The notes under the pieces are model-generated. The model was given only the letters and a program-made list of their open reading frames with translations. It did no database searches and was not told the origin of the DNA. Made by a program: the position numbers and the translations under genes. 64,000 nucleotides of DNA from Persicaria tinctoria (taxonomy: Eukaryota; Streptophyta; Magnoliopsida; Caryophyllales; Polygonaceae). This document shows positions 8,901 to 64,000 of the stretch, in pieces. The stretch covers positions 31,936,467-32,000,466 of the forward strand of contig JBANSL010000004.1 in assembly GCA_037127255.1 (NCBI GenBank), given 5' to 3'. Position 1 is the stretch's first letter; each line of letters starts with the position of its first letter.

Positions 8901-9399
8901 TTCCTCGATGAGCCACCCGCCAGGAGCAAAGTCCTTGTCGATGTCGAGTAGCCTACTCGAGGTCGACGAGCCACCCTCTTCATCGACTTCTGCTTCTTCG
9001 ACCAGGACACCACCAGAGCCTGCAGTCTCGTCGATCTCGAGGAGCCCTAGTCGAGATCGACCAAATACCGTGGTCCCCGATTCCGTTTCTGCGAAGGTAA
9101 GTCAAGGTATGGATCTTTCTTCTCCTATTTCCATCAAAGATTTATCTATACATGGGAGAGGTTTGCCTTGGTATGTGCGATTGTGCAGGATTTCCAATGA
9201 TGAGCCTAAGGAGTATGAAATTGGAGACAAGCTCTATGTCTCTAAATCAAAGGATCATTGGTTTCCCAACAAATTCAACAAGAAGCGGATGGGACCGTTC
9301 GTGGTGAACAAGATCCATTCTGGAGGATTACAGCTGATGGACAAGAATGGAGTCTTATTTGAGGCCCAAGCTACATGGGCCCTGCAGATGCCACCTTGA
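5941..9399 (+). CDS. Gag-protease polyprotein with repeat hinges and an integrase-like tail
   Basis: An open 1152-codon ORF. Residues about 20-80 are an alanine/glutamate-rich helical region, and about 85-270 are a retrotransposon Gag core. A CCHC zinc knuckle begins at Cys339 (CIECGSQKHTTPEC). Residues about 515-570 are repeats of the type VDLDK. An aspartic protease has its active site DLGAS at residue 685 and a typical ILGRPFL near 760. A second Asp/Ser-rich hinge (about 874-1040) carries more VDLD/VEID/LLEVD units. The last 90 residues (WFPNKFNKK, GPFVV, QATWAL) resemble the C-terminal end of a gypsy integrase. The whole RT-RNase H-integrase core expected after the protease is missing with the frame kept open. 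Element D has the same architecture, so this is a lineage trait. The product would assemble particles and self-process but needs a helper polymerase. Confidence 0.9.
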   Translation: MRRSGQTPEFDSLDEPERYLHIQSKLKRIMSAAETQEQLIARLIRELATRDAAINAKDAAIAAERAAREQAQAELAQYPTTTEDYMHPTLVVPESAILIPENSFEIRTQFLIELKNNAFYGRFNECPLEHITNFHDMCRTLAEGTTLEYVKMKSFRWSLVGPALKWLEGLKAKSLTTWAQVEQEFLNKFFPSAKTAHLRQKITAFKQQKGEPLARAWERYKELLRSCPTHGQPPYIIREIFFNSLDQVTKDRINNYTRYEYLTMPPSDAWGVLEKLTTYDNKYGSTATYEENPYARPAPSMPLYEPSKEIDPDVWEQYYRDQNRKLIKQVKYLSVNQPCIECGSQKHTTPECPHTVQVRMAEHHEDAAYAGGPNRYMGDQRFQQPQWNQGVPRNPPPYRAPGHPERDQKKDDIQLVLEEIRRNHSETRQSFNSVYTQMQGVNSRLGEIDIWRKTVDTQIGQLASGIPRQSGALPGSSEPNPKGKTRHVAAVKLRSGHQLQEPEVGKQQNDEEQQVDLDKSVVDLDKAVLDLDKTLVDLEEKLPESSSAPNSNSTAPNPVDLGKTLVDVEEPLVEKSAATPTSVLAPTQKKKLPFPTKSLKDPAEKKFQRFIKMLQKLNVTIPFTEALNEMPSYVKFLKEILSKKRSMAEITEECSHLDILEKRPDPGKFAITIGFGPYRINALCDLGASVSIMPLTIWSKIKIGALEHVDARLYMANNTVVIPTGMVENVPVQVGKFFVPADFLIVDMQEDPACPIILGRPFLAIVDANISVRKGVLTFNISDEVIEYSFNKTERHTGPMEEVKSISAGYITCGEPKVRNMTPEEIEKRDMEAQVEEIMEILKENTENPIDTDQGKSLWINYFSDALTGAKYGVKIDQTLVDLDQTKETPPEPVSSSSQTEAKPSSISSRLLEVDKNPANTTPASSTQKPPNAPSLVEIDKGLVEIDHSSTASASSSSMMVTPGPKPYSTSSRLVEVDHHPVPPDMPSSMSHPPGAKSLSMSSSLLEVDEPPSSSTSASSTRTPPEPAVSSISRSPSRDRPNTVVPDSVSAKVSQGMDLSSPISIKDLSIHGRGLPWYVRLCRISNDEPKEYEIGDKLYVSKSKDHWFPNKFNKKRMGPFVVNKIHSGGLQLMDKNGVLFEAQATWALQMPP

Positions 9400-10864
9400 G
9401 CATTAATGAAAGTCGGCCTAGCGACTATAAAATCTAGAGCATGTACATAGACTTTTTAGGACATATGAGACTTTGTTTTTGTTTTTTCTTTTGTGGGTAT
9501 ATGTCTTCTACTTTTTCAGGTCAATGGATAGAACCAAAGCTTACTCGGACTAAGAGGTGCTCCATTCGAAATTTTGCAGCTCTGCACACATGTCTTGTGA
9601 GTTTCTTTCTTTACCCTTTACCCTTGTTTTTATATACAGTGAGGACACTGTAATGTTTAAGTATGGGGTGGGGGAAGGGCTTACATTATGCATATTTTCC
9701 ACACTTGACATTATGTGTGCATTATTTCTTGGAATTGCTACATGGCTATTTTGGAATGCATTATTTATTTATGTGCTTATATGCATGTTTTCCAAAAATC
9801 TTGAAAAATGACCCCCATTGAAATTTTTGAATAATGTCATGGAAGCTTATATTGGACTCAACGATGCAAAATTGGATTCATTAGAGATATAACATGAAAT
9901 TGCCTAGTAAGGGGAAGTCACAATGAAGTGCATTATTTCTTGAAAACCATGAAAGGAGGTAAAATTTGAAGTTGCTTTTGACATGTTGCATGATAAGATG
10001 ATGGAGGACTTTATATTTCCATATAATGCTCATATTGTTTATATCCTAGCCTTACCTATGCTTACGCATCACAAAAGCCATAACATGCCTTATTTCAAAT
10101 ATATGCTCCACATGATCTAAATATTTGCCATTCTTTACCTTATCCGGGGATTATGTTGAGAATGATGTTACATTATGGAGATGTTATATGGTGTTTTGTG
10201 TTGTTATTATCATTATTGGAGTTTGGAAGGAATTTGTTTGAAATATATGGAAAATTTAAGGAGTGAAAGAAAATCCAATCACCTCAGGAGATAAAGGTAG
10301 ATTGACCCTGCTCTCTAAGATAATAGTTTGGAGAGATGGGACACATTGTGAGGAGTCCAAAGCACTAAGTATCCGGGGCCATTCATGACACCCATGTTTG
10401 CGACTCGCGAGAAGGCAGTGCTGAGGTCAGAGAGGTAAAAGCAGTATTATTGAGAAAAAGCATGATGAAAGGTGATGAATCTTATGGAGAAGAATGTGGT
10501 ATGAAAAATCAAAAGTTTGAAAGTGATCCATTTCCCCGGATCAAAAGCACCACATTGCCAGAAATCGCCCACCTTTTAGCCTTTTACCTATCTACTCCTT
10601 CATGAGCTTAAATTAAAGTCTTCTTGATTATCAATGCTTTGTCACGTATGAATTATTTGTGCATAACCCTCCTTTTGTGAGTAGATATTGCTTTTATATA
10701 TTTGCACATGCGTGAATCTGTGACACTAGTACCTTTGCGAGGATGGTAATTGACTGCAGGGACATATAAAGAATGAATCTAAGATGTTGAGAGTTTTGAT
10801 TTCTTCCCCTGAATGACAAATAAAAGTATTGCTTGAGGACAAGCAAGCTTAAGTATGGGGTGTT
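9400..10864 (+). other. Conserved non-coding region between ORF and 3' LTR of element B
   Basis: 1.46 kb without a credible ORF, conserved with A (1-1240) and D (21699-23170). It includes a TTTAAGTATGGGGTGGGGG motif at about 9655-9673 and ends in the polypurine tract at 10851-10864. Athila elements carry an extra ORF at this place; none is intact here. Confidence 0.8.
10851..10864 (+). promoter_or_regulatory. Polypurine tract of element B
   Basis: AAGTATGGGGTGTT lies immediately upstream of the 3' LTR and is preceded by GCTTGAGGACAAGCAAGCTT, a block common just before the 3' LTR of Athila/Tat-like elements. It would prime plus-strand synthesis. The same block precedes the LTRs of A and D. 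Confidence 0.75.
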
Positions 10865-13107
10865 TGTTGTAAGCGGAATCTGCCATGTTTTACAGTAACT
10901 TTTATATCGATTTCTGTATACATTTCATTCATTTGGGTTAAGATAGTACAGAATCTATGTAGTTTATGCTTATTTGCCAAAATTATGGAATCTACACCAG
11001 TTTCTGTTTAAATCGCAGAAATCGAGGCATTTACAGCAATTCTACAGAAGGTCGGAGAAGCTCGGAAAACCACTACAGAAGTCCAAGGTCAAAACAGCGG
11101 AACAAATCGGAGAGCCAAGTCTAGTCGACATCGAGTAACCCTACTCGACCTAGACGGGCCATGGCCGAGCAGCCTTGGTCGAGCACACCCTGATCGAGCA
11201 AGCCAGACACCCGAGCTCTGGACCCTACTCGACCTCGACAAGCCCTGGTCGAGGTCGACGAAGCCTAGTCCCCATGTCCGGAGTCGACAAGGAGAAGAGC
11301 CGAGCTTGCCGAGAAAAAACCACCCGAGGACGACCAGGAGGACTCGCTGCCGCGGAAAGAAGGACTCGCTGCCGCGGAACGAAGGACCCGCTGCCGCGGA
11401 CGAACCCATCCGCTGCCAGCGGAAGGAGCAGCTCGAGAAGACCTAGTCGGCCAACCTTACTCGAGGTCGACTAGGGCTCGTCGAGATCGACGAGCTGCCC
11501 TAAGCCATGTCCGAGCAACCCGAGGAGATCTACCCGAGAAGGTCCGGTCGATGACCTAATCCCACTCGAGGTCGACAAGGCCAACTCGAGGTCGACGAGC
11601 ACCAGTGAGCCAGAGTCCGAGCCACATCGAGCAGAGCCGAGCCAAGCCGAGCCACCCAACTCGAGGTCGAGGAGACCTTGTCGAGGTCGACTAGACCCAG
11701 ATTCCAGAAGCTTCTCGACTTGGCTTGTCCGAGTAGAATTTGGATGTCTTGGCCATGAAGGAATCCGAGAGTTGCTGGGATCTATCCGATCTATCAAATC
11801 TATCCATGGAAGGCGGAATCTATCAACATGAAGACATACCTACCATAATTAGTTTTATCTTTTCCTTATGGATTTAATTCCATTAAACAATTTATTTATC
11901 TTTCAAGCAATTTAGATAGAGATAGATATCTTCTTTCCTAGATTAGCTAGGGAATGAAGGCTATAAATAAAGCCCTAGGGGGCTGATTTTCATTCATTCA
12001 AATTCAGTTAGATTCAATTTCAGAGAGAAGTAAGTAGTTCCACAGAGAGTTTAGGAGTTCTAAGGTTTTTAGGGTTTTGGCTTACAGCGAAAGTTGATTG
12101 CCAAGATTGTAAAAGGCTTTTGAATATAGTTTTAATGCAAGTTTCTTTTCATCAATCAATGTCTGCGATTGCAATGAGGCGTGAGTAGTCCACCCACTTC
12201 TGGGGCTGGGGTGAGCCCGACGGTGGCCATGTGAGGCGATGCGATAAAGGTCAGATCTTTTTGTGTGATTCATCTTCTATCCCTATAAGCATGATTCTTT
12301 TGCGAGAGTTGAAGGTGATCCTTGTTTGTGTTATTGAAGCGAAAGTGATCTTAATGCAACTTGGATTAATTATGTGAAAAAGGGTTAGTAACAATTAGGG
12401 TTTATGCGAGAGCCTCTATATGCCTATTTGTTAATGACGAAAGTTATTTAGATGGAAAGCATGATCTTTTATGCCTTTATGTGTTGTTTTGCATGGTTAT
12501 CGTTGTGGTGTTGAAAACCTAGCCTTGGAGGTCTATTATATTGATTTATTTCACCGAAATTCTGAGTTCTGTGTTTGAATTTGCAAGCTTTAAAGTTTCT
12601 GTCTTTTTCCTGTTTCTGGTCGACCTAGACGAAGCTTCGTCGAGATCGAGTTACCCCTTGTCGATCTCGAGTTGGGTTTGTCTTAGTCGAGTTGTCTTTT
12701 CTTCTTTTTCTGGTCGATTTTTACTTTCTGAGTCACTGTGTTGGTCGATCTCGAGTACTGTTTGTCGAGATCGACGAGAGCCTTTGCCCTTTATTTGCTG
12801 CGTTGTTCTTTCTTTGTTTGCTTTACTTTCTGTCTTTTACTTGTTCTTTGCTTTTGTTTTAGTTGCCCTTGCCGGGTTATTTGTTTCTTTCTTTCTGTTT
12901 CTGCGATTCTGTCTGTTTTGCTCTGCTGCAGTGTCTGTGAGAATCTGATAGCTACCTGAGAACTGCTGACGTGCTTCCTCGTGGATTCGATCCTGACTTT
13001 TCTCTTACTACAACGGGAGGAAGTCTTGTATTATTTGCTGAGACAGGGAAGTCAATCTGAACTATATTTCATATTTATTTCATACTTGACCATCCTCCTA
13101 GTCAACA
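10865..13107 (+). mobile_element. Element B 3' LTR
   Basis: A 2243-bp copy of the 5' LTR, starting TGTTGTAAGC and ending GTCAACA. Differences from the 5' copy are scattered single bases and a small deletion near 12533. The TATA box is at 11962-11969. It is followed by the target duplicate CTAGT and then host intron DNA. Confidence 0.92.
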
Positions 13108-20402: not shown

Positions 20403-21698
20403 GTGGACAATGTGCCAGTACAAGTAGGTAAGTTCTTTGTTCCTGCTGATTTCTTAGTTGTTGATATGCAAGAGGATCCTGCTTGTCCAATTATTCTAGG
20501 AAGGCCCTTCTTGGCGACGGTGGATGCCAACATAAGCGTAAGGAAAGGAGTGCTCACCTTCAACATCAGCGATGAGGTAATTGAGTATTCCTTTAATAAA
20601 ACTGAAAGGCATACAGATCCAATGGAAGAGGTCAAATCTATCTCAGCTGGCTACATCATCTGCGGGGAACCCAAGGTCAGGAATATGACCCCTTAGGAGT
20701 TGAAAAAGAGGGACATGGAGGCCCTGGTGGAGGAGATCAAGGCAATCCTCAAGGAGAACACAGAGAATCCAATCGACACAGATCAAGGTAAGTCGTTATG
20801 GATTAATTATTTTTTGGATGCCTTGACAGGAACTAAGTATGGGGTCAAGATCGACCAAGACTCCTCGACATCGAGGACCCTAGTCAATCTCGACCAGACC
20901 AAGGAGACTCCACCAGCACCGGCCTCGTCGAGCAGTCAGACGGAAGCAGAACCCTACTCGACCTCGAGTAGACTCGTCGAGATCGACCACCACTCGGCCA
21001 ACTCGACTTCGCCTTCCTCGACGCTGACGACTCCAGAACCAGAGGCCTTGTCGATCTCGAGTACGCTACCCGATGTCGACCAACTTCAGCATCCTCGGGC
21101 ACCGTCTTCGTCGACACAGACTCCACCAGACGGACGAAGCTCGTCGATCTCGACTAAGCTTGTCGAGATCGACCACCACCCGACTCCACCAGATCCTTCC
21201 TCCTCGACGCTGCAGACACCAGGAGCAGAAGCCTACTCGAGGTCGACCAGCCTTGTCGAGATCGACAAGCCCTGTTCTTCGTCGACTTCCGCATCCTCGA
21301 GCAGACCACCACCAGAACCAGCATCCTCTTCGAGATCGACTAGTCCTAGTCGAGATCGACCAAACACTTTGGTCCCTGATCCCGTCTCTGCGAAGGTAAG
21401 CAAATGTATGGATCTTTCTTCTCCTATTTCCATTAAAGATTTATCTATACATGGGAGAGGTTTGCCTTGGTATGTGCGATTGTGCAGGATATCCAATGAT
21501 GAGCCCAAGGAGTATGAAGTTGGAGACAAGCTTTATGTCTCTAAATCAAAGGATCATTGGTTTCCCAACAAATTTAACAAGAAGTGGATGGGGCCTTTCG
21601 TGGTGAACAAGATCCATTCTGGAGGATTACATCTGATGGACAAGAATGGAGTCTTATTTGAGGCCCAGGCTACATGGGCCCTGAAAATGCCACCTTGA
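20403..21698 (+). pseudogene. Protease C-terminus, hinge and integrase-like tail of element D
   Basis: It continues B's polyprotein from VPVQVGKFFVPADF through the ILGRPFL motif. An in-frame TAG at 20694-20696 stands where B has a Glu codon. After it the frame is open for 332 codons: a Ser/Thr/Asp-rich hinge with many SSRLVEIDHH-like units (20850-21365), then the integrase-like tail (WFPNKFNKK, GPFVV). As in B, no RT, RNase H or integrase core is present. Confidence 0.88.
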
Positions 21699-23170
21699 GC
21701 TAAATGGAGAAAGTCGGCCTAGCGACTATAAAATATAGAGCTTGTACATAGACTTTTTGGGACTTTTTGGACATTGTTTTTTTTGCTTGTTTTTGGTTTT
21801 GAACATTTTTTGGTTTTTGTTTTTTCTTTTGTGGATATGTTTTCATACTTTTCAGGTCTATGGATAGAACCAAGCAATAGTCATACTCGGCCTAGGAGGT
21901 GCTTCCAGTCAAAATTTAGAAGCCCTGCACATCTGTCTAGTGAGTTTCTTTCTTTACCCTTGTTTTTATACAATGAGGACACTGTAATGTTTAAGTATGG
22001 GGTGGGGGGAGGGCTTACTTTATGCATATTTGCCATATTTGACATTATGCGTGCATTATTTCATTGAATTGCTACATGGCTATTTTTGAATGCATTATTG
22101 ATTTATGGGCTTATATGCATGTTTTCCAAATTTTGAGAAAAATGACCCCCATTGAAAATTTTGGTTAATGTCATGGAAGCTTATATTGAACTCGACGATG
22201 CAAAATTGGATTCATTAGAGATATAGCATGAAATTGCCTAGTAAAGGGAAGTCACAATGAAGTGCATTCTTTTATTGAAAACCATGAAAGGAGGTAAAAT
22301 TTGAAGTTGCTTTTGACATGTTGCATGATAAGAGGATGGAGGACTTTATATTTCCATATACATGCTCATTGTGGATATCCTAGCCTTACCTATGCTTATG
22401 CATTACAGAAAAGCCATAATATACCTTATTTTAAATATTGCTCTACATGATCTTAATATTTCCATTCTTTACCTTATCCGAGGATTATGTTGAGAATGAT
22501 GTTACATTATGGAGATTGTTATATGGTTGTTGTGTTTATCATTATTGGAGTTTGGAAGGAAATTGTTTGAATTATATGGAAAATTTAATGAGTGAAAGAA
22601 AATCCAATCACCTCAGGAGATAAAGGTAGATTGACCCTGCTCTTTGAGATAATAGTTTGGAGAGATGGGACACATTGTGAGGAGTCCAAAGCACTAAGTA
22701 TCCGGGGCCATTCATGACACCCAAGTTTGCGACTCGCGAGAAGTCAGTGCTGAGGTTAGAGAGGTAAAAGCAATATTATTGATAAAAGCATTATGAAAGG
22801 TGATGAATCTAATGAGAAAGAATGTGGTATGAAAGTTTGGAACGTACTCCATTTCCCCGGATCAAAACCACCACATTGCCAAAAATTGCCCACCTTTTAG
22901 CCTTTTATCAATCTACTCCTTATTTGAGCTTAAATTATTAATGCTTTGTCACATACAAATTGTTTTTGCATAACCCTCCTTTTGTGAGTAGATGTTGCTT
23001 TTGTATAATTGCACATGCATGGATCTGTGACATGAGTACCTTTTCGAGGATGGTAATTAATTGCAGGGTTATATGGCAATGAATCAAATATGTTGAGAGT
23101 TTTGATCTCTTCCCCTGAATGACAAATAAAAGTATTGCTTGAGGACAAGCAAGCTTAAGTATGGGGTGTT
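21699..23170 (+). other. Non-coding region and polypurine tract of element D
   Basis: 1.47 kb homologous to 9400-10864 of B and 1-1240 of A. PPT-like motifs lie at about 21990-22012 (TTTAAGTATGGGGTGGGGGG) and directly before the LTR at 23157-23170. No credible gene is present. Confidence 0.8.
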
Positions 23171-24450
23171 TGTTGTGAGCCTAATTTGTCATGTTTTACA
23201 GTAACTTTTATATCGATTTCTGTATACATTGCATTCATTTGGGTTTAGATAGTACAAAATCTATGTAGTTTATGTTTATTTGCCAAAATTATGGATTCTA
23301 CACCAGTTTCTGTTTAATTCGCAGAAATCGAGGCATTTTACAGCAATTCTACAGAAGGTCGGAAAAGCTCGGAAAACCGCTACAGAAGTCCAAGGTCAAA
23401 GCAGCGGAACCAAGCTGAAAGTCAGGGTAACTCGATCTCGAGTTGACCCTAGTCGACATAGACGAGCATGTCCGAGCACCGCCTTGTCGGCAGAGCCTGA
23501 TCGAGAGCCAGACCAACCCGAGCTCCGGACCCAACTCGATCTCGAGGACCACTGGTCGAGATCGACGACACCTCAGCGCCACGCCCGGGGTTGACGAGAA
23601 GAAGAGCTGGTCGACAAGCCGAGGACGGAACCGAGGACGACCAGGAACACTCGCTGCCAGCGACTCGACTCGCTACAGCGGACCGCTCGCTGCCGCGGAA
23701 AAACTCGCTGCCTGCGGAAGAGGCAACTCGCGGAAGCGGAAAGGAAGAACCCAACTCGATCTCGACTACGCCTTTGTCGAGGTCGACGAGCGCCTGAGTC
23801 CAGATCCGAGCTTGCCGAGTAGAGCAACCCGAGGAAGCCTAGTCGACAGAGCCATCCTACTCGATCTCGACCAAGCATTGTCGAGGTCGACGAGCCCTGT
23901 GAACCAAGTCCGAGCCACATCGAGCAGAGCTAGCCGGGAGGTCCAGTCGACGAACCATCCTTGTCGAGGTCGACGAGCCGTGGTCGATCTCGAGCAGACC
24001 AGTGTCTAGCAGCTTCTCAACGAAGACCTGTCCGACTAGAATTGGGATTCCTTGGGCGCGAAGGAAGTCGATTCTATCCTAATCCATCAAGTTCTATCCA
24101 AGGAGACAAGATCTATCAACATCATGAAGACTTACCCTATTTAGTTTTATCTTTCCCTTTTAGATTTATTTCCTTAAAACAATTTGTTTATCATTAAGGC
24201 TTTAGATATAATTTTAGATATAGATAGATATCTTCTTTCCTAGAATAGCTAGGGAATGAAGCCTATAAATAAGGCCCTAGGGGGCTCAGTTTTAGACAAT
24301 TCAATTTCAGAGACAATTAGTTAGTTCCATAGAGAAGTTTAGGAGTTCTAAGGTTTTTAGGGTTTTGGCTTTCTGCGAAAGTTGATTGCCAGAATTGTAA
24401 AGGCTTTTGAATATAGTTAATGCATGTTTCTTTTTATACATCAATGTCCG
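23171..24450 (+). mobile_element. Element D 3' LTR, truncated
   Basis: It starts TGTTGTGAGCC after the polypurine tract and is very similar to the solo LTR over U3. It includes a palindrome cluster (about 23430-24000) and TATAAATA (24264-24271). It stops in the leader at CATCAATGTC, where other copies continue TGCGATTGC. The next base belongs to the LTR of element E. About 950 bp of the LTR and any target duplicate are lost. Confidence 0.88.
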
Positions 24451-45830: not shown

Positions 45831-45987
45831 ATAAGCACTTCTTCGTGAGCCAAAAACGTCAACAACGCCGACTGCACTAAGCGTATAAATTGACCCCGAT
45901 CCATCTTGACCGGGATTGCAGGTAAATTAGGACATTTTGTCGTCACCCTGAGGTAATAAGTATAGATGAAATTCCACAAGTGCGTCA
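45831..45987 (+). mobile_element. Element G, end of the 5' LTR
   Basis: About 157 bp between F and the primer site, ending ...AAGTGCGTCA. It is assigned to the LTR only because the primer site follows directly. The rest of the LTR was displaced or lost at the F junction. Confidence 0.6.
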
Positions 45988-45988
45988 T

Positions 45989-46006
45989 TGGCGCCTTCTG
46001 TGGGAA
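45989..46006 (+). promoter_or_regulatory. Primer binding site of element G
   Basis: TGGCGCCTTCTGTGGGAA right after CA. Tat/Ogre-like elements typically have TGGCGCCGTCTGTGGG here; this copy has one difference in that core. Confidence 0.7.
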
Positions 46007-46199: not shown

Positions 46200-47720
46200 G
46201 TGAAGAGTTTGGAAACCAACATCATGATGTCGAAGAAACCGACGGACTCAACCTCAACAATCCCCCCCCCCCCCCCCCCCCGCAAAGAGGAAGCTCAACA
46301 CCACAATGGGATGTGGAGTAGTTACCCACCGTATCAATTCTTCGCGGAGAATTACCCACATAATCCATACTTTGGCCAGCAAGCAAACAAGATGCCATTC
46401 TACCGCGATCCCCATGCACACTATCAACACCAGGGTTCTGTACCTACAACGGTCAACCACTTCCCTAACCCTGCGGGCAACCCTCTTAATCGCGGTCTAA
46501 AACACAACGATAACATCGACGAGACGGCCTGCGACCACAACACCAGGGACGTGTCATCACGCTCTAATTCTCCTGGGGCACCTGGCCCAACCCAAAAAAG
46601 TGAGCCGACTTTCCCATATGCCTCCTGCAAACAGATAAGAGAACCACCTGTCCCTAAGAGGAGGAGGGATGTGCCCATCGCCAAATTCAAAGGAGACACT
46701 GATCCTAACGATCACCTCAAACACTTTACAACGTCGATGAGAATGAACGAGGACAACGATGCTATGTTATGCTGCTTGTTTCCGTCCACATTAAGCGGAG
46801 TGGCTCTCACATGGTTCACTAATCTGGCCCGGTCGTCCATTAACAACTTCGCACAATTATCAAGCACGTTTGTCGCCCATTTTGGTAGTGCTCGGACAAG
46901 AAAAAGGACCATGCTGGACCTCAATTCCATCAAACAGGAATCGTCAGTAGGTTTACTAATATGGTGGTGCAGATCATGAAGTTTAATCAAGAGTCCACGA
47001 GCACAGTATTGATGGGTAACCTGGCTGAAGGGAATTTCAAGATCTGCCTATTCCGAAAGGAGCTAGAGAATTATGATGATCTACGAGAGCTCATCACAAA
47101 ACAAATCCACGCTATGGAGGCTCCAAGTTCAAGTTCGCAACCCTTTGACACCAAGCCTTCTTTTTACCACAAGGTCCCCAACAAATACCGAGAGAAGGGA
47201 GGGTTCGAGAATCAGCAATGCTATAACCATCCTTGGCAATACCTCATCGCCCCACCGAGGCCTCCCCAACGAGAAGTATAATACAACCAGCGGACAGGAC
47301 AAAGCCCGCACAATGCCGCAACGAATGTAATGATAGCTCATCCCGACCATATTTCACCCCCTGTTTATGGGATTCCACCGGCTCTCTCCCGAAAGAAAGT
47401 GCCCTTAAAGATATGTGCCCCGCCAGTGAATCCCAACCAGCGTGTCACGACGCCGCAACAATAAAATCCTCCTGTGGTCCCTCCCCGAAAAAATAGACCT
47501 TCTCCTACTCCACCTTGGCCATACAATCTCCAATATGCAGCTAGAGGAAGAGGAAGAGGAAGGGGGATTACTCCCAAGGCAGGGGAGGAAGAAACGGGAA
47601 CAGAGGAGGAGGATACCGGCCTCCCCCTAGGGACGCGAGGAATGCTCCCGAAGCAAGGTCCTTATCAAACCGACATAAACATTCCAATAGGGATCAACAG
47701 AAACCACCCTAGCTAGACAG
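46200..47720 (+). pseudogene. gag of element G
   Basis: The ORF 46200-46979 contains a Pro-coding C20 tract (46262-46281) and then the Gag core: IAKFKGDTDPNDHLKHF, a methionine-rich helix and SGVALTWFTNLARSSINNF. Near 46970 the frame shifts. The core continues as KFNQESTSTVLMGNL...FRKELENYDDLRELI (46980-47100), then a basic, Arg/Gly/Pro-rich tail in broken frames to about 47720. No CCHC knuckle was found. Confidence 0.8.
46262..46281 (+). repeat. C20 homopolymer in gag of G
   Basis: Twenty consecutive C residues inside a proline-coding stretch; its length sets the reading frame of the gag start. Similar tracts occur at 61992-62009 and, as G, at 63574-63592. Confidence 0.95.
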
Positions 47721-47849: not shown

Positions 47850-48520
47850 GGTACTAAGTTTTTCCGTTAATGATGCTCGCGACCTCAGTATGCAATATTC
47901 GGATACTATGGTCATTCATATGCACCTAGGGACCAAAACGGTCAAGCGAGTAATGGTAGACACCGGTTCGTCAGTAGACGTCCTATATTGGAACGCCTTT
48001 GAGCAGCTTGGCATCGCGGAAAGCGCTTTGCGTTGCTACTCAGGAAAGCTAGTCTCTTTCTGAGGAGATGAAGTTGAAGTGGCTGGAACGATCGAATTAG
48101 CTCTAAAACTGGGGATGGCTCCGAATAGAAGAACTCACATGATTGAGTTCACGGTGGTCCGACTACCATCCATTTACAATGCTATCATGGGCCGAGTGAG
48201 TCTATTCAAATTCCAAGTAGTATGATCTATTTATCATTTTAGCATCAAGTTCCCATGCACCGATGGAAAGGTAGGTGAAGCCCGAGGGGAACAGGCAGAA
48301 AGCAGAGTATGTTGTTCGACTTCACCAAAAAAGGGACACGGGCGAGTGTTCGCGATCGACGAACCTGGTCAAGGGTCGTTAAAAATAGAAGAAACTGACG
48401 AAGATGACCAAGAAGCCACATCTAAAAAGCAACAAGCAGAAATGGAGGCGAGGCTCGAGAAAATGATAAAAAAAAATAGTTGAAGAAAAGGTCGCTTTAT
48501 TCCCATTCCCAAATAAAGCT
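47850..48520 (+). pseudogene. Protease of element G
   Basis: It reads VKRVMVDTGSSVDVLYWNAF with the catalytic Asp codon at 47959, then LALKLGMAP and MGRVSLFKF where the usual ILGR motif stands. In-frame stops (for example near 48061 and 48223) break it. The acidic linker with DEDDQEA follows and is cut at 48520 by element H. The text resumes at 57283. Confidence 0.82.
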
Positions 48521-49491
48521 TGATAACTCTCTCCCTTGATGAAAATTGGAATAAATATTTCAAAGGCTTTGACAGGATGTTTGTGTCAAAGGCCTTGGAG
48601 CATTAACAGTTGATGAAATACAAAACCTGTCTTATTTGTCCGAATATTATTTAATCTTAATATATACTTCCTTTATATTATATATATATCTTTCCTTCAG
48701 TACATATTGAGGAGATCGAATTCAAAATAGATCATGGCTTCGGAGTATCCATAAATAGAAGATTCAAGATCAAGTCATGATTTGAAAGAGCCGTTGATGA
48801 AGTTCTGGTGTTGAAGACCCTCACGCTCCATGCTCTTATATAGAGGAAAGGAAGAAGAAGACAGAGATAACATAGTGCTACACGAGCTTTCATTCATTCA
48901 AGCAAGATCTGTCATCCTAAGTGTCTCTCTGCTAAGCGCTCAAGAGTTTGTTGTTTATTTCAAAGCCTTTGAGAGTCACTGTGAGCTTATAGGATATATT
49001 CATTTATAGTGTTACTCGAGAGTTTATAACTCGGGAAGTTGCACTAGGCTATTGGTTTGTGAGAGTAAGAGGATTGTACTAGATAGCTGAGAGAGGTGGG
49101 GCTCTTCTAGATTGGTCTAGGACTCCAAGGGAACGTGAGTTGACTAGATTGCAATTGTATAGGAGAGAGGCTTCTCGGTGAGCTATTAGGATCCTAAGCT
49201 AAGCAATCAATAAAGCCTTTTGAATCCTAGGGTTGTGGATGAACCCTAGGCGGGGACATAGGCCAAGTTCGTGCCGAACCTCGTAAACAATTACTCGTGT
49301 TCTTTACTTATTGCTTTACCTTATTTCCGCACTTGGTTCGATTGTCTAACTTTGTGATTCGGGTTTAATCTCAAAGGTTTTTGTACAAGCTCCAAAAGTC
49401 TTGAGACTTTCTGCGAAAAACGGGCATACTCTATTCAACCCCCCTTCTAGAGTATCTTTATATTACTTTGTTTTACATTATCGAACCTTCA
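48521..49491 (+). mobile_element. Element H 5' LTR
   Basis: 971 bp, starting TGATAACTCT and ending TTCGAACC-like ACCTTCA. A TATATATATA stretch lies near 48685-48695 and a second TATA-like TTATATAGAGG near 48836-48846. The region downstream of the latter is the likely transcript leader. Confidence 0.92.
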
Positions 49492-49493
49492 AT

Positions 49494-55902: not shown

Positions 55903-56261
55903 GCCTAAAACCTACCCTACCCTATCCCACCCCTGAAAACTTGATACATTGCTGGATTGTTGGAAACGTTTTCAAAACTTTTGGTGACTTTTTGGTGACT
56001 GTTTTACCTCCTCCCTTTGTTGAAAGACAAAAAGGGGGAGATGATCTGTGGTGCTTAGACTTTGAAAACCTCTGCTTAAAGGTCTTGGAAGACCTTGGTT
56101 TTTGATTTATGGTTTTCGGTTGGATGGTTTTTGCATGCTTTAAAAATTTGATCCAACATTTGTCTAACCCTTGCAGGTACATAGTCCGATTTCTATTTTA
56201 TTATCTATGCTTGACTAAGTTGCAGGGATGCACAAGTTTTGTCTTTCATCAAGGAGGAGAT
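55903..56261 (+). promoter_or_regulatory. 3' untranslated region and polypurine tracts of H
   Basis: It contains AAAAAGGGGGAGATGAT (about 56030-56046) and, directly before the 3' LTR, AAGGAGGAGA (56251-56260). Repeated purine tracts upstream of the 3' LTR are a known Sirevirus trait. Confidence 0.75.
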
Positions 56262-57277
56262 TGATAACTACCTCCCTTGATTAAAATTGGAATAAATGTT
56301 TCAAAGGTTTTGACAGGATGTTTGTGTCAAAGACCTTGGAGCATTAAGAGTTGATGAAATACAAAACCTGTCTTATTTATCCGAATATTATTTAATCTTA
56401 ATATATACTTCCTTTATATTATATATATATATATATGTTTGACTAACCTTTTCAGGAAGTATTTCGAGATTATATCTTTCCTTTAGTACATATTGAGGAG
56501 ATCGAATTCAAAATAGATCATGGCTTCGGAGTATCCATAAATAGAAGATTCAAGATCAAGTCATGATTCGAAAGAGCCGTTGATGAAGATCTGGTGTTGA
56601 AGACCCTCACGCTCCATGCTCTTATATAAAGGAAAGGAAGAAGAAGACAGAGATAACATAGTGTTACACGAGCTTTCATTCATTCAAGCAAGATCTGTCT
56701 TCCTAAGTGTCTCTCTGCTAAGCGCTCAAGAGTTTGTTGTTTATTTCAAAGCCTTTGAGAGTCACTGTGAGCTTATAGGATATATTCATTTATAGTGTTA
56801 CTCGAGAGTTTATAACTCGGGAAGTTGCACTAGGCTATTGATTTGTGAGAGTACGAGGATTGTACTAGATAGCTGAGAGAGGTGGGGCTCTTCTAGATTG
56901 GTCTAGGACTCCAAGGGAACGTGAGTTGACTAGATTGCAATTGTATAGGAGAGAGGCTTCTCGGTGAGCTATTATGATCCTAAGCTAAGCAATCAATAAA
57001 GCCTTTTGAATCCTAGGGTTGTGGAAGAACCCTAGGTGGGGACGTAGGCCAAATTCGTGCCGAACCTCGTAAACAATTACTTGTGTTCTTTACTTATTGA
57101 TTTACCTTATTTTCGCACTTGGTTCGATTGTCTAACTTTGTGATTCAGGTTTAATATCAAAGGTTTTGGTACAAGCTCCAAAAGTCTTGAGACTTTCTGC
57201 GAAAAACGGGCATACTCTATTCAACCCCCCTTCTAGAGTATCTTTATATTACTTTGTTTTACATTATCGAACCTTCA
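56262..57277 (+). mobile_element. Element H 3' LTR
   Basis: 1016 bp, the same ends as the 5' LTR. It has an extra 45 bp near 56425-56475 (with TTTGACTAACCTTTTCAGG) absent from the 5' copy. It is followed by the AAGCT duplicate and the resumed coding text of element G. Confidence 0.92.
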
Positions 57278-57282
57278 AAGCT

Positions 57283-58190
57283 GAAGCCCTTTACCACGAC
57301 CACAACTTGGCCAACCCGGCTTTAGATCGTATAAAGCGTATATTGAAAGAATCACGGGACATCATTCGATAGTCGCCCTAGGATTTGAAGGGTCTCCCTC
57401 GCGAGATCACGGAGCACTCTTTAAGACTCAAACGAGATGCGAAGCCCGTGTGCCAAAGGAAAAGAAAGATGGCCGCTGAGAAGTCGGAAGCGGCAAAACA
57501 AGAGGTCAAAAAGCTTTTACATGGCGGATTCATACACGAAATAAGCGACTCGACATGGTTGTCGATTGTGGTATTGGTAAAAAAGAGCAATAGCAAATGG
57601 AGAATGTGTGTAAATTTTAAAGATCTGAACAAGGCTTAGGTAAAGGACAATTACCCTTTACCTTCCATTGACGAACTGGTAGACACCACGATGGGGTACA
57701 CAACCCTGAGTTTCCTTGATGCATACTCAGGCTACAATCAGATCAAAATGAGCCCCCGCGATGAAAAAAACACCGCCTTCATCACCAATCAGGGGATCTT
57801 TTGGTATAAGGTAATGCCCTTCGGGCTCAAGAACGCCGATGCAAGCTTCCAACGAATGATCGAGAAAGTCTTCAAGCCCCAAATTGGAAGAAACATCGCG
57901 GTTTACGTCGATGACATCGTAATTAAAAGCCTCACAAAAGAGAGCCACGACAATGACCTCCAGGAAATCATAGACACCCTAAGGAGGAATTGCGTTTGTC
58001 TGAATCCGAAAAAGTGTGTGTTCGGGGTGGATTCTGGAAAGTTCTTAGGTTTCATGATAATTCATCGCCAAATAGACGTTAACCCTTCAAAAGTTCAGAC
58101 GATACTCGACATGGTCCCCCAGAACATTGAACAACATCCAGAAATTGAATGGATATGTCAAATATCTGAGTAGGTTCTACTCACAACTAG
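57283..58190 (+). pseudogene. Reverse transcriptase of element G
   Basis: It includes KRKMAAEKSEAAKQEVKKLL, WRMCVNFKDLNKA followed by a stop, PLPSIDEL, FLDAYSGYNQIKM, KVMPFGLKNADASFQRM and the catalytic YVDDIVIKS (57904-57930). The thumb (FLGFMIIHRQIDVNPSK) is legible to about 58110, then frames shift. Several nonsense codons make it inactive. Confidence 0.88.
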
Positions 58191-59784
58191 TTGATCACTC
58201 CTTTCCCTTCTTTGAGCAGCTAAAAAAGAAAGGACCGGTTGAGTGGACCACCGCCCTGGATAATGCTTTCAAAAATATGGAGTACTTAGCAACATTGCTC
58301 ACCCTCATTACCCACGCGAACATGAAACTCCATAACTATATCTCGCGGTTGGGTCAACCACCATTAGTACACTGTTCACCAAGGAATCCAAGTTTCCCAT
58401 TTATTTCACTAGTAGGGTCTTACAACCGATCGAATCCAGATACACTCCCATAGAAAAGATGACACTATCGGTAGTGTTCGTAACACGAAGACTAAGGCCT
58501 TATTTCCAGGCCTATACCATCGAGGTATTATCTGATCTGCCCCTACATCAAATCCTCCATTCACCATCCCTCTCGGGAAGGATGGCAAAATGAGCAGTGG
58601 AGCTTTCGAAATTTGACATTCATTTTAAACCTAGAAAATCTCGTCTAGCCCAGGCTCTGGCCGATTTTGTTGTTGAAGCTGTTTTTACAGATTTCCAAGA
58701 TCGCGTGGGAGAATATTGGGTTATCAACGTGGATGGCTCAGTGTCGGTAAGAGGATGTGGGGCAGGAGTCACAATTACAAGTCCTAATGGAGAGGTAACT
58801 GATATGTCTTTCCAACTACTGTTCGAGGCTACCAACAACAAAGCCGAGTATGAAGCCCTCATCGCAGGTATTGAAAAGGCACTAGTCAACGGGCCTCGGG
58901 AAGTTCAAATTTTCACGGACTCAGAAGTAGTCACTCTACAAGTCAAAGGAGAGTATGAAGCGAAGACAGGAATGTTGCCTGAATATCTAGCTCGCGTGCA
59001 AACGCTCATAGTCGCCTTTGGGAAATGGTCCATTTCATATATCCCTCGTGAGAAAAACGAATGCGCCAATATTTTAGCTAGAATCAGAGCTACACTACCC
59101 CCAGGACTGGGCGATCGCGTGGTGATTGAGCAAAAGCATACAAGAGGAGTCCACGAGGGGTTTTTTAGAATATCCAACATCGAAGACTGGCAAAAACCGC
59201 TTTTAGAATACATAACTGAAGGCCCATTGATGAGCGAATTGCAGGATAGCCAAAGCATCAAAAGACGAGTTGCCCGCTTTCGAGTCAAAGACGGCCGCCT
59301 ATACAAAAGAGGTTTTAACCTCCCAAATCTCCTCTGTGTGTCGAACCAAGATGGTCTTGATCTAGGCTACTACTGGCCCACTTGCAGAGCTGATGCTGAA
59401 ATGATTATTCATATATGTGACCTCTTCCAGCGACATGCGTTGCTCAATCATCGCCCTCCTCATCCTATGAAATGCATATCGGCACCCTATTCTTTCGCAA
59501 TGTGGGGAATGGATATTTTGGGTCCTTTCCCAACAGTACCATGCCAACTGCGCTTCATCATTGTAATAGTGGATTACTTTATAAAATGGGTAGAAGCCGA
59601 AGCCATGGCTATCATCACAGCTGAAAAAGTATGGAAAAATATGATTTGCCGATTTGGAGTCCCACAAGCCATCATCACCGACCACGGTCCCCAGTTTGAC
59701 TGCGAGGGAATCCGAGATTTCTGCGCCGGGCTTCACATCGATTTCAGATTCTCATCAGTGGCTTACCCACAATCCAACGGATAA
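58190..59784 (+). pseudogene. Dual RNase H and first part of integrase of element G
   Basis: The ordinary RNase H is decayed (about 58190-58620, ending at WSFRNLTFILNL-like text). The second, archaeal-like RNase H is well kept: WVINVDGSVSVRGCGAGV, LLFEATNNKAEYEALIAGI and FTDSEVVTLQVKGEYEAK. Its presence identifies the Tat lineage. Integrase follows, but its HHCC histidine half is deleted (LLCVSNQDGLDLGYYWPTC). The core has GMDILGPF, ITDHGPQFD and YPQSNG, then TAA where Gln is expected, just before the catalytic Glu. Confidence 0.85.
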
Positions 59785-60322
59785 GCCGAAACCACGAATC
59801 ACCAGATTCTGAATGCCTTAAGGAAGAGACTAGGGACAACAAATGAAAGAGGGGTGGGCTGAAACCTTTCCACTGGTACCCTGGTCATATAGGACCTCGA
59901 CCAAGAGCCCAAATGGGGAAACGCTATTCGCAATGACTTTTGGAGTCGACGCGGTTATCCCAGTAGAATTGTTGGTACCATCAGCTAGAATTTTTTATTT
60001 CAACAAATACACCAATGACGAAGCCCTTGAACTGGAGCTCCACTTGCGAGAAGAATGTAGAGACACACCTGGTCTCAAAGCAAACGAATATCAGCGTCGA
60101 CTGGCTGAGGGGTACAACAAGCATGTCTTCCAACGCCCAATTCAAAAAGGAGACATGGTCCTTCGACAAGCAGCAGCAGGGGGTAAACTTGAACCCAAAT
60201 GGGAAAGTCCTTACGTCATCGACAAGGAAGTAGGTAGAGGTTCTTTCAAGCTTCAAAATTCAAAGGGAGCAATCCTCGCGATGTCATTGAACGTCAGAAA
60301 TCTCAAAGCTTATTTTGCATAA
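59785..60322 (+). pseudogene. Integrase C-terminal part of element G
   Basis: It starts with AETTNHQILNALRK after the stop, shifts frame near 59830, then is open for 159 codons: VPWSYRTSTKSPNGETLFAM, RIFYFNKYTNDEAL, FQRPIQKGDMVLRQ and the chromodomain-free end KLEPKWESPYVIDKEVGRGSF. It ends NVRNLKAYFA with a stop. Confidence 0.85.
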
Positions 60323-60448: not shown

Positions 60449-61195
60449 CGCATAAATTTAGCAATCGCGTGTCTTTCGAACACGGATGTGCAAACAATCC
60501 TCAAAGGAGAATAAATTTAGCAATCGCGTATCTTTCGAACAGGGATGTGCAAACAAGCCTCCAAGGAGAATAAAATTAGCAATCGCATGTCTTTCGAACA
60601 CGGATGTGAAAGCAAGCCTCCAAGGAGAATAAATTTAGCAATCGCATGTCTTTCGAACACGGATGTGCAAACAAGCCTCCAAGGAGAATAAATTTAGCAA
60701 TCGCGTGTCTTTTGAACACGGATGTGCAAACAAGCCTTCTGGGAGAATAAATTTAGCAATCGCGTGTCTTTCGAACACGGATGTGCAAACAAGCTTCCGA
60801 GGAGAATAAATTTAGCAATCACGTGTCATTTGACACGGATGTGCAAACAAGCCTCCAAGGAGAATAAATTTAGCAATCGCGTGGATTTCGAACACGGATG
60901 TGGAGAATAAATTTAGCAATTGCGTGTCTTTCGAACACGGCAGTGCAAACAAGCCTCCAAGGAGAATAAATTCAGCAATCGCATGTCTTTCAAACACGGA
61001 TGTGCAAACAAGCCTCCAAGGAGAATAAATTTAGCAATCACGTGTCTCTCAAACACGAATGTGCAGACATGCCTCCAAGCAGAATAAATTTAGCAATCGC
61101 GTGTCTTTCGAACACGGATGAGCAAACAAGCCTCTAAGGAGAATAAATCCATTAATCACGTGTTTTTTCGAACACAAATATGCAGACAAGCCTAA
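60449..61195 (+). repeat. 59-bp minisatellite, about 13 copies
   Basis: The unit begins GAATAAATTTAGCAATCGCG, continues TGTCTTTCGAACACGGATGT and ends GCAAACAAGCCTCCAAGGA. Copies start near 60451, 60510, 60570, 60629, 60688 and on to about 61143. One is shortened near 60900, and the last ones are diverged. Tandem repeats in the region downstream of pol are typical of Tat/Ogre-like elements and can seed satellites. Confidence 0.93.
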
Positions 61196-61340: not shown

Positions 61341-61735
61341 TCATTCACTCCCTTCCAAAACAACTATCGCATAGCGATTGCTCCCTTCATACTTAAAAAT
61401 GATAAGAGATCCCCTACCACAAAGCCCACTATCTTCAGCAAAAGCACACCAGCCTTTGGTTAGAATATAATGACCTTGGCTACCCCGAAATACCCTTAAG
61501 CGAAATTCTCGTCCATAAGGGGAAACTAAACAGACATGCCTTGACACGATGTGCCCATACATAGGACCGAAAGAGTCCGATAACAACTGCAAACAATCAA
61601 AGAAAAGCACTATTAAAAAGGCCATAAATACGACAACCACGAATAAAGAAGTAGAAGAACTACCAGATATTCAAGCTTCTCTTCAGAATCAATGGAGCGA
61701 AAAAAATAGCGATGACTAGGGTTGGGAGAAGTCAT
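61341..61735 (-). CDS. Small B3-domain protein, copy 1 (two exons, intact)
   Basis: Exon 1 (61735-61664) encodes 24 residues (MTSPNPSHRYFF...), donor GTAGTTC. The intron is 77 bp with acceptor TTGTTTGCAG. Exon 2 (61586-61341) encodes 81 residues and TGA. Both join in phase 0, giving 105 residues. The body reads FGPMYGHIVSRHVCLVSP, GREFRLRVFRGSQGHYILTK, GWCAFAEDSGL and GSLIIFKYEGSNRYAIVVL, the order of strands and the GW...F...GS..F.Y motif of a plant B3 DNA-binding domain of the REM type. It is antisense to element G and lies between two tandem-repeat arrays. A second, broken copy with the same exon sizes is 620 bp upstream. B3 domains bind DNA in the nucleus; a solitary B3 of this size has no other domain. 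Whether it is expressed is unknown. Confidence 0.7.
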
Positions 61736-61991
61736 GGTTCCTCACTCCAGGTCAGAAAAACAGAAACAACACGAAAAGGTGATTGAGAGAGGCTACTCCC
61801 TACACTATCATATATATCAACAAATAAAACCCATCCTGTTCAAAACGGGCATCAACACAACAAACAAGTGACCCCCTCAATCCAAAAACTTATCAGATCA
61901 ACTGCATGAAATTAAAATATCTACCCTATTACAACAGCATCGCGATGTTAGATCCCTACCCATCTTCAAAAACAAGAACCTTGAAGTGATT

Positions 61992-62009
61992 CCCCCCCCC
62001 CCCCCCCCC
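61992..62009 (+). repeat. C18 homopolymer
   Basis: Eighteen C residues that end the readable part of B3 copy 2 on the minus strand (as G18). Confidence 0.95.
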
Positions 62010-62354
62010 ACGTGTAAAAAACACCATCGATGATCCAACCTGCACATCATTATTAATCGCGAATCTTCCCCAACCTTCAGTCAAACATTAATGATTGAAG
62101 CTATCCTTGGAAACCCCAACACGAAAGTTTTTCCTAGTTGAGGAAACCAAACAAACATGGTCGGATACGACATGACCGTACATCCTTTCAAAGGCACAGG
62201 GGAGAGGCTGCAAGAAAAATCATCATTTCGTAAAGAATCGAAACTGAAAAACTATAAAGCATATCAGACATTGAGATTGTACCAAACGATGGAGCCGTTC
62301 CTCTTCATCGATACAACGGTAAAAATCTCGCATCTCATAATCGGGCGACGCCAT
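62010..62354 (-). pseudogene. Small B3-domain protein, copy 2 (broken)
   Basis: Exon 1 (62354-62283) is again exactly 24 codons (MASPDYEMRDFYRCIDEEER...), donor GTACAATC. The acceptor TTTTCTTGCAG opens exon 2 at 62217: FERMYGHVVSDHVCLVSS, KNFRVGVSKDSFNH, a TAA (62098-62100), then LTEGWGRFAINNDVQVGSSM and VFF before the G18 tract, where homology ends. Exon structure, phase and sequence mark it as a paralogue of copy 1, inactivated by the stop and by the homopolymer. Confidence 0.7.
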
Positions 62355-63216
62355 CTCTTTTTCTACCAAACAAAGATAATAAACAGTTAAAGAGAAGTAG
62401 ATGAACAGGTTGCTGCAAATCCCACGCATTTATATATCCAAAATAAAGTTGTACAGACCACGAAAACTGCAACAACATTTATTACACATGCCGGACGAGG
62501 AAGGGGGGCTGAATCGAGATTTCCCAAGATATCCTGTATGGCTTACACATGGCAGGAATCTATTCAGAATCCGACCAATTCATCTGTACATTTCAAATCC
62601 GTAAATAGTCATTTGTCACGAGAAACTTCAGATCAATCCCTATTACACCACTATAAAAAGTTGTCCTGTCACTGCATAAACCATCGCCTACAAGCAAGAA
62701 AATAGCAAGCAACATAGCAACTTCAAATTCAAACAACCCTCTCATATTCGATATTTACTTAGTAGGCGAGGAAAAATACATACACCTGTTGTTGCCTTAT
62801 TGCTTCGGCGAACATTTCGAACCCCAGTTTCCAAAACAAATCATTTTATCCACTCACATCGTAAAGGATTTCCCTGTTCATATCACATGAGGCATCTACG
62901 GTTCCCATTAAGTGGCACGAGGATGGAGAGACTTTGTCGAGACTCACAGGCTCGAACTGGAGACATCGATATTGTTCACCCATCTAGGCAAAGCAAGGTT
63001 TTAAGTCCACTTTTAGGACAAACAGGGCCATAACATCAAAGAAGAGATGGATGCCACTAGATACGATGGTCCAAAAGCAAATAGGTTCTAGTTTATCTTC
63101 ATCTGTAGGTCGCTATGTAGTAATTTTTTTTATCAAATACAATGAAATGTAATGCGAACTATCAATGAAAAGTCTCAATTCTCCATTACGATTAAATTTC
63201 AGCATATTTCGCCTTT
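62355..63216. other. Unassigned region upstream of the B3 copies
   Basis: No recognisable gene. It would contain the promoter of B3 copy 2. It is AT-rich with short ORFs of no family character. Confidence 0.45.
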
Positions 63217-63217
63217 G

Positions 63218-63545
63218 CGCCACAGACGTTGAAGATTGTTTTTAGCTCTATCGGTTTCTCCATTGCGTGGCGTACACTGGAGATTACCTACTTTTGTTCA
63301 ATCTCCTCTACGCCACAGACGTTGAAGATTGTTTTTAGCTCTATCGGTTTCTCCATTGCGTGGCGTACGCTGGAGATTACCTACTTGTGTTCAATCTCCT
63401 TTGCGCCAAGGATGTTGGAGATTGTTATTAGCTCTACCGGTTTCTCCATCACGTAGCATACACTGGATATCACCTACTTTTGTTTAATCTCTTCTGCGCC
63501 AAGGACGTTGGAGATTGTTATTAGCTCTACCGCGCTCAGTATCTC
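63218..63545 (+). repeat. 93-bp tandem repeat, about 3.5 copies
   Basis: Units start CGCCACAGACGTTGAAGATT or CGCCAAGGACGTTGGAGATT at 63218, 63311, 63404 and 63497. The period is a multiple of three, so one plus-strand frame shows a 31-residue repeat, which I regard as a by-product. Confidence 0.93.
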
Positions 63546-63592: not shown

Positions 63593-64000
63593 ACTTCTTC
63601 ACGCAATCCCCAAAATGAGCAAAATGGTTGACACTTTGAATGATGCCACCGTCCACTCCTTGTATAAAAACATCGGACAGATAATCATCGAGAAAAGCAT
63701 CACCATCTGTCTCAAGGAAATGGGTCAGCCAGGTTCGACCGTCCTTTGCAAAGAAGTTGAGCTCCCCGCGAATGGCCGCCAACTCAGCCTCATAGAGAAA
63801 AGCCACTTTTACCCTCATCACCCAGCATGTAGTCGTAAAGCATATTCTTCGTCAAAACCATATCTTCGACTGAAGTAAAATGCTCCAATTAGCCTTTACC
63901 AAGGTCCAACTCCCCGCGAATGGCCGCCAACTCCACCTCAAGACCTCAGATCTGATCACCTAAGCGCGTAATCTCAACCTCATGCTACGACCCCCTCTCT
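63593..64000 (-). pseudogene. Antisense ORF remnant in the 3' region of G
   Basis: On the minus strand, entering from the window edge, the text reads EVEITRLGDQI, a stop, LEVELAAIRGELDLG, then KNMLYDYMLGDEG and EAELAAIRGELNFFAKDGR, then FLDDYLSDVFIQGVDGG and NHFAHFGDC. The ELAAIRGEL unit occurs twice (plus-strand 63749-63788 and 63908-63944), which suggests a local duplication. It resembles the helical antisense extra ORFs known downstream of pol in Tat elements, but frames are broken and most of it may lie outside the window. Confidence 0.35.

Follow-up and report, generated by a model that had tools for sequence, protein, structure and literature searches.

Retand elements of the Tat lineage carry antisense genes and tandem arrays in a long region between pol and the 3' LTR. 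According to the accessible part of one survey, antisense TRP28 ORFs are found in 97% of Retand clusters and have no relatives outside transposable elements (Vicient 2025, PMC11963269). The domains named in that part are TRP28, Smc, Mis12 and few others but no B3, and what it describes are ORFs, not intron-bearing genes or multi-gene arrays (PMC11963269). Grande gene23 is likewise an antisense gene between pol and the 3' LTR and has its own promoter; in the accessible text, gene23 and the antisense genes of RIRE2 are without a known domain, B3 included (Vicient and Casacuberta 2020, PMC7264820). Plant LTR elements are treated there as known to capture genes, and an RNA-level role is proposed for their antisense ORFs (PMC7264820). 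A B3 domain inside an LTR element is mentioned for consensuses of Aegilops tauschii, in the accessible text without lineage, orientation, copy number or selection (PMC9289625). The accessible part of PMC13317346 holds no 'B3 domain'. Our literature search, run mostly on papers outside subscription, returned this single short remark on B3 in LTR elements and nothing for Tat/Retand.

The locus described here shares with Retand elements the long region between pol and the 3' LTR, antisense genes, tandem arrays, the LTR length range and possibly the antisense TRP28 gene, of which it has a weak likeness (as far as the accessible text of PMC11963269 goes), and differs from them by a set of short B3 genes. 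We hold with good confidence that it is a Tat/Retand-like element which captured a REM-type B3 gene together with its intron, duplicated it internally and retained the copies as constrained accessory regulators. Binding of the products to the element's own arrays is not part of this reading and is treated separately below.

Element G and its B3 mini-genes

The window, that is the whole stretch of 64,000 nt of Persicaria tinctoria DNA analysed here, is located in C4; the genome measures 1.68 Gb and comprises 221 contigs. Element G lies on the + strand. The 3' end of its 5' LTR and a primer-binding-site-like sequence beginning with TTGGCGCC are found at 45913..46006 (LTR part 45913-45987, 79-82% identity to the LTR ends of the fetched stretches L053 and L051). 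They are followed by gag at 46200..46979 (PF03732, E=7.8e-9), the reverse transcriptase at 57640-58170 (PF00078, 3.5e-27) and RNase H at 58336-58590 (PF17917, 2.9e-11). A second RNase H-like domain (PF13456/PF00075; 1e-18 for PF13456) and the integrase core (rve, 2e-6, 28.4 bits, below the cut-off) occupy 58594..59781, and the integrase C-terminal region, query of the co-location test below, extends over 59834..60319. A Ty3/gypsy pol with two RNase H domains (PF17917, PF13456) before the integrase is a Retand (Tat) feature. The reverse transcriptase had no relative in viral contigs. The window copy is strongly rearranged and contains a nested copia-type element with LTRs at 48517-49492 and 56258-57278 (92.9% identical). 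Several related copies of another repeat are present at 1-24448 (e.g. 8119-12163 versus 20403-24448, 82.6% identical).

The initial annotation had read 61341-62354 as two antisense genes of two exons each, and translation together with Pfam bears this out at exactly these positions. Gene A (61341..61735, - strand) consists of exon 1 (61735-61664, 24 codons), a phase-0 GT..AG intron of 77 nt (61663-61587), exon 2 (61586-61344) and a stop codon (61343-61341). As had been claimed, it is open and encodes 105 aa in 24 + 81 codons. The domain search suggested for this product gave Pfam B3 (PF02362) with E=1.1e-9 and 38.6 bits, the curated cut-off being 30.1 bits. Gene B (61956..62354, - strand; exon 1 62354-62283, intron 62282-62208 of 75 nt, exon 2 62207-61956) is decayed. 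The internal stop and the tract of 18 G described for it are both present, the latter as C18 on the + strand at 61992-62009. With an X set at the stop for the scan, it matches Pfam B3 with E=6.4e-7 and 29.7 bits, slightly below the cut-off. G-rich expansions occur at a common site (GGH codons) in this gene and in B of L010, L032, L036 and L038, which resembles a slippage hot spot. TATA-type boxes are located on the - strand at 61811..61816 for A (about -81 from the ATG) and at 62431..62436 for B (about -82). A single-sequence AlphaFold model was unusable (pLDDT 51). Gene A had no relative in viral contigs and none in a protein database that apparently has few plants.

Both flanking arrays were recovered by TRF, the 59-bp array between integrase and A (60452..61193) and, on the far side of B and D, the 93-bp array (63212..63529), which contains GGAGATT/TCTCC motifs. 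D is a third, intronless B3 gene in sense to gag-pol (62702..63088, + strand). It was found by tblastn with a D protein and is decayed with internal stops; the relic shows 63% identity to the D of another copy over 129 residues (E=1e-53). Past the 93-bp array, a piece of an antisense accessory gene (63598..63851, - strand; tblastn to L041 and L042) continues into L039, where it encodes a coiled coil; its match to Transposase_28 stays below the 26.2-bit cut-off (E=0.1). To speak of a pair of B3 genes was correct in that both genes are real, and an underestimate in that up to six unit types occur in related elements.

Copies across the genome and place inside the element

The exon-2 translation of A (84 aa) matched at least 150 places from C1 to C20 with 59-100% identity, 150 being the number scored out of 3737 first-look candidates. 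Many B3 matches form near-equal pairs, C1/C11 through C10/C20, which suggests two haplotypes or subgenomes. We inspected the 30 best-ranked loci with 1.5-kb flanks, one of which is the window, and five 10-kb neighbourhoods (ranks 2, 27, 51, 75 and 139). A search for the B3 pair in other elements like G had been proposed; A and B are present in the same order in all five neighbourhoods. The integrase falls inside the fetched range in two of them and was not seen in the ranges of the other three. Among 33 different copies of A, 26 have B upstream on the same strand, and 7 are without a recognised B. The exon-2 starts of A and B are 621-852 bp apart in 24 of the 26 copies, 350 and 589 bp in the other two.

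A profile built from A, B, C and host B3 sequences led to the further units C, D, E and F. Units A, B and F are antisense to gag-pol, C, D and E sense. Like A, both C and D are found at no fewer than 150 places each. Pfam B3 is the best match for every unit type (B 7.3e-9, C 4.4e-7, D 3.4e-7 and 1.5e-6, more weakly E 8.3e-6 and 5.4e-4, F 1.6e-5 and 8.1e-5). A (38.6 bits), B (35.9), C (30.2) and one D (30.6) exceed the cut-off of 30.1 bits; window B, the other D (28.5) and both E and F (20-26 bits) remain below. Moreover, a profile of A and B matches the B3 chains of At1g16640, TEM1, RAV1 and NGA1. L041 carries A, B, D, E and F, L042 and L044 carry A, B, C, D and F, and L043 carries A, B and D; 'up to six' therefore counts unit types, the maximum in one fetched stretch being five.

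Repeated B3 matches to residues 16-84 of the profile were considered as members of the same family and rejected, as the one fetched (L049) proved to be a different REM-like exon. This exon (L049 2468-2722, C3:4142191) is itself dispersed, with frames of 85 aa at more than 10 places. The long ORF beside it presumably resembles a plant mobile domain protein, and another transposon may have spread what is perhaps a REM exon.

Relative to the integrase, the B3 genes keep a constant order and orientation in the cases listed. The integrase C-terminus is contained in 13 of the 30 short loci, by our own count in all 13 on the 3' side of A and on the opposite strand. For co-location we compared 150 listed matches each for A, integrase and D, out of 3737, 7461 and 4845 candidates; since each list is a small part of its family, absence from it is uninformative. 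A listed integrase lies within 12 kb of 45 of the 150 listed A, in all 45 cases with opposite orientation and the order expected, as compared to a mean of 0.37 and a maximum of 3 for randomised integrase positions. Similarly, 38 of the 150 listed D have a listed A within 5 kb, always on the opposite strand and on the 5' side of D, mostly at 1.6-1.7 kb. A listed integrase is found within 15 kb of 45 listed D (of 150), each time upstream and on the same strand.

A layout that extends to the 3' LTR comes from the copy at C19:10.74M, which reads RT-INT, 59-bp array, A, B, D, 98/48-bp arrays, F, C, an antisense Transposase_28-like gene and the 3' LTR. The antisense gene encodes a coiled coil and matches PF04195 (Transposase_28) with E=1.2e-3 and 19.5 bits, below the cut-off of 26.2 bits. 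The 3' LTR (632 bp) is related to the 5' LTRs found in two other copies (728 and 720 bp), with 72-74% identity over that middle part of it which aligns; each of these 5' LTRs is followed by a primer-binding-site-like sequence TTGGYGCC.... A 5' LTR of the C19 copy itself was not seen. The three LTR lengths are inside the Retand range of 315-1,194 bp. In contrast, pol and the 3' LTR are about 10 kb apart in the C19 copy, which may hold insertions, versus 2.9-6.6 kb in Retand (accessible part of PMC11963269).

The initial annotation placed the B3 genes inside a Tat-lineage element. This is sustained by the + strand reverse transcriptase, RNase H and integrase upstream of them, by the integrase order in 45 of 45 cases and by the 3' LTR of the C19 copy beyond the B3 block; no 3' LTR was found before 61300, a position that would have put the genes outside the element. 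The expectation of a 3' LTR beyond position 64000 held in part: one is present past the B3 block in the C19 copy, but three LTR queries found none for the window copy in the next 20 kb (L039 and L054). An Athila-like element with terminal repeats of 87-92% identity is inserted there, past the antisense gene (from about L039 2416 to about L054 4153).

A 2-kb repeat starting with TGTAACACCCC (L052 320-2388 and L053 3982-6829, about 90% identical) lies on either side of the C12 copy. We rejected it as the LTR pair, as the 5' one is outside the true 5' LTR and has no adjacent primer-binding site; it may belong to another transposon. In C13, matches to D (20041650, 20078048, 20114454, 20150860) and C (20033297, 20069693, 20106099, 20142505) recur four times in steps of about 36.4 kb, a tandem duplication with a B3-bearing element inside. 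A further large tandem duplication including the element is seen in C1, where A (46884640, 46947221, 47012828) and C (46862799, 46925564, 46988107) recur three times in steps of about 62-66 kb.

Introns and relation to host REM-type genes

The host REM-type genes L047 and L048, which we take to be VRN1-like, have a phase-0 intron immediately before the xLPxxF motif, and the introns of A and B are at that position. The antisense units thus share with host REM-type genes the B3 domain and this intron. The host genes sampled contain several B3 domains, whereas the element units are multicopy and have one domain in 100-140 aa. Exon 1 can be identified in 29/33 A and 25/26 B. The GT after the 24th codon is retained in 27/33 A and 24/26 B, the AG before exon 2 in 27/33 and 20/26, and both together in 23/33 and 18/26; introns with that GT measure 68-83 nt. 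All four inspected copies of F show an intron-like break at the REM position, three of them with a clear GT.

The sense units are without intron. This applies to D in 10 of 10 fetched loci as well as in L041 and L012, to E (3/3) and to C (2/2). By our reading of the table, all 150 C matches listed run across the junction, which lies at about residue 42 of 138. The longest of them is no more than 429 bp, too short to accommodate an intron at the REM position. Intronless sense units are expected if sense introns are spliced out in retrotransposition. The losses may amount to perhaps only two independent events.

A tree built from 34 element units and 13 host domains (47 sequences, all short) separates the units from all host domains with a support of 87. 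Nearest to the units are two host REM first domains; a split at 99 sets these two and the units apart from the remaining 11 host domains, a value from short sequences and thin host sampling. D pairs with E (100) and C with F (92), while A and B split off from all others at 88. The simplest account of these sequences is a single capture with subsequent duplication, the host sampling being too thin for proof. We regard it as probable that a REM-type gene was captured together with its intron. A Retand-like element would have taken up such a gene, and duplications within the element would then have produced A/B, C/F and D/E. Introns of antisense units would outlast retrotransposition as they are not introns in the genomic RNA, those of sense units would be removed by splicing.

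The proximity to host REM first domains, as far as the 13 sampled domains tell, makes host targets conceivable. The proteins might act on the host, e.g. by competing with REM/VRN1-type regulators, and shift silencing or development in favour of the element. We consider this unlikely, as mean identity between the unit types and the two nearest REM domains is just 23-29%.

Another possibility is that the sense units are separate captures of spliced mRNA, in which case their lack of introns would be no record of retrotransposition. C and D/E could be two such captures, the more so as host sampling is thin. However, intronless C groups with intron-bearing F, and all units stand apart from the 13 host domains. 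Moreover D has a TATAAA upstream, at the place matching that of the other boxes, in 9 of 10 fetched loci, and an mRNA copy would not carry one. Separate mRNA captures are thus quite unlikely, and capture of one gene with its intron is the origin that we prefer.

Constraint on the reading frames and possible function

Pairwise dN/dS (Nei-Gojobori) has a median of 0.14 for A in 33 copies (L041 dropped as the same place as L035), compared to 1.25 and 1.39 in the shifted frames. Pairs with pS < 0.15 give 0.65, and the value drops to 0.10 among the most divergent ones. For B the median is 0.19 in 24 copies (shifted frames 1.23 and 1.19); these were located through A and not by similarity of B, and L011 and L035 were left out due to broken starts. 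D yields 0.15 (shifted frames 0.95 and 1.22) in 12 sequences, which exclude L043 (same place as L055) and include a duplicate pair as L044 and L062 are one place. As copies of A and D were picked by similarity to a query, their dN is biased downward. The exons of A align without gaps across all 33 copies, while the intron and the 150 nt past the stop are gapped and show 36% and 42% mismatches. Stop-free are 25/33 A and 17/24 B; the remaining 8 and 7 have stops in exon 2. Distances of A and B correlate over 24 copies (r=0.76, 0 of 2000 permutations). A, B and D, the three units tested, are under purifying selection. That B3 genes are borne by the element and kept under constraint is in our view highly probable.

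TATA boxes are conserved as well. Among 28 A, 13 carry a strict TATAWA in the 160 bases ahead of the ATG, where 3.0 would be expected; for B the figure is 20 out of 25 as against 4.2, and most of these boxes lie between -76 and -87.

Antisense transcription itself, via RNA-level regulation or small RNAs, could be what acts, with proteins being secondary, as proposed for antisense ORFs of plant LTR elements in the accessible part of PMC7264820. The constraint on the protein frame and the sense orientation of half of the unit types render this very unlikely. Still less probable is functionless cargo, i.e. a host fragment passively carried by a successful element. Capture by plant LTR elements is known (PMC7264820, accessible part) and many copies are decayed, among them B and D of the window; yet dN/dS of 0.14-0.19 versus about 1 or more in shifted frames, obtained for B independently of its own similarity, led us to reject neutral cargo, and splice sites and TATA boxes are conserved. 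A chance insertion of a Tat element next to or within ordinary host genes or pseudogenes is a reading with next to no probability in spite of the rearranged window copy and the 3' LTR not found in 20 kb. The pair recurs genome-wide and is not a stray host insertion; A has at least 150 dispersed copies, the order and strand towards integrase and D are constant in the cases listed, and the C19 3' LTR lies beyond the block. A host gene with a nested element was rejected on the basis of this co-location.

A constrained, element-borne gene set leaves the question of its targets. Judged from sequence, TATA boxes and a B3 domain as the sole domain suggest that the proteins bind DNA. The products would be short DNA-binding proteins of one domain, expressed from internal promoters. 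The arrays beside the genes are candidate targets. Versions of the 59-bp array with 59-63 bp are present in L040, L041, L042 and L044 and absent from L043 among the five 10-kb neighbourhoods. The 93-bp array has counterparts with other periods in other copies, and AATCTCC-type motifs are seen in arrays of 35 to 98 bp. As raw counts without a chance level, exact AATCTCCARCGT is present in 14 of 18 stretches scanned, the fuller AATCTCC..GGAGAT dyad pattern in only 5 of 18. In a fold test of the dyad, the 98-bp unit was significant (0 of 200 shuffles fold as well), five other array units were not.

VANDALs belong to the DNA transposons, and VANC is not known to be a B3 protein. The analogy lies in the layout, since the VANDALs of Arabidopsis carry a gene for a presumed DNA-binding protein beside family-specific arrays in non-coding DNA, and VANC proteins recognise motifs within the arrays of the transposon that encodes them and lower methylation (accessible part of PMC5735166). 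Binding and demethylation are demonstrated there (PMC5735166, same part); in the B3 system it is the layout, with B3 genes beside family-specific arrays, that was observed. By analogy, the likeliest role of the B3 proteins would be to bind their own element, perhaps at the 59-63 bp and AATCTCC/GGAGATT arrays, and tune transcription or silencing. We put forward such binding to the element's own arrays as a tentative idea. The wider picture, in which up to six separately promoted B3 proteins recognise co-evolving arrays of their element as a self-encoded anti-silencing or transcription control and the introns record the passage through RNA, is rather doubtful.

Taken together our data suggests that the element encodes gene regulators of its own and that at least three of up to six B3 genes are selectively kept intact. 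The probable origin of the accessory genes is visible here, namely a plant B3 gene family including its intron. Their function is directly testable, as they combine a DNA-binding domain with candidate target arrays beside the genes. Antisense units that keep the intron and sense units that lack it amount to a natural counterpart of the intron test for retrotransposition, which was reportedly used in work on yeast Ty. Finally, B3 gene counts in plants may contain many element-borne copies.
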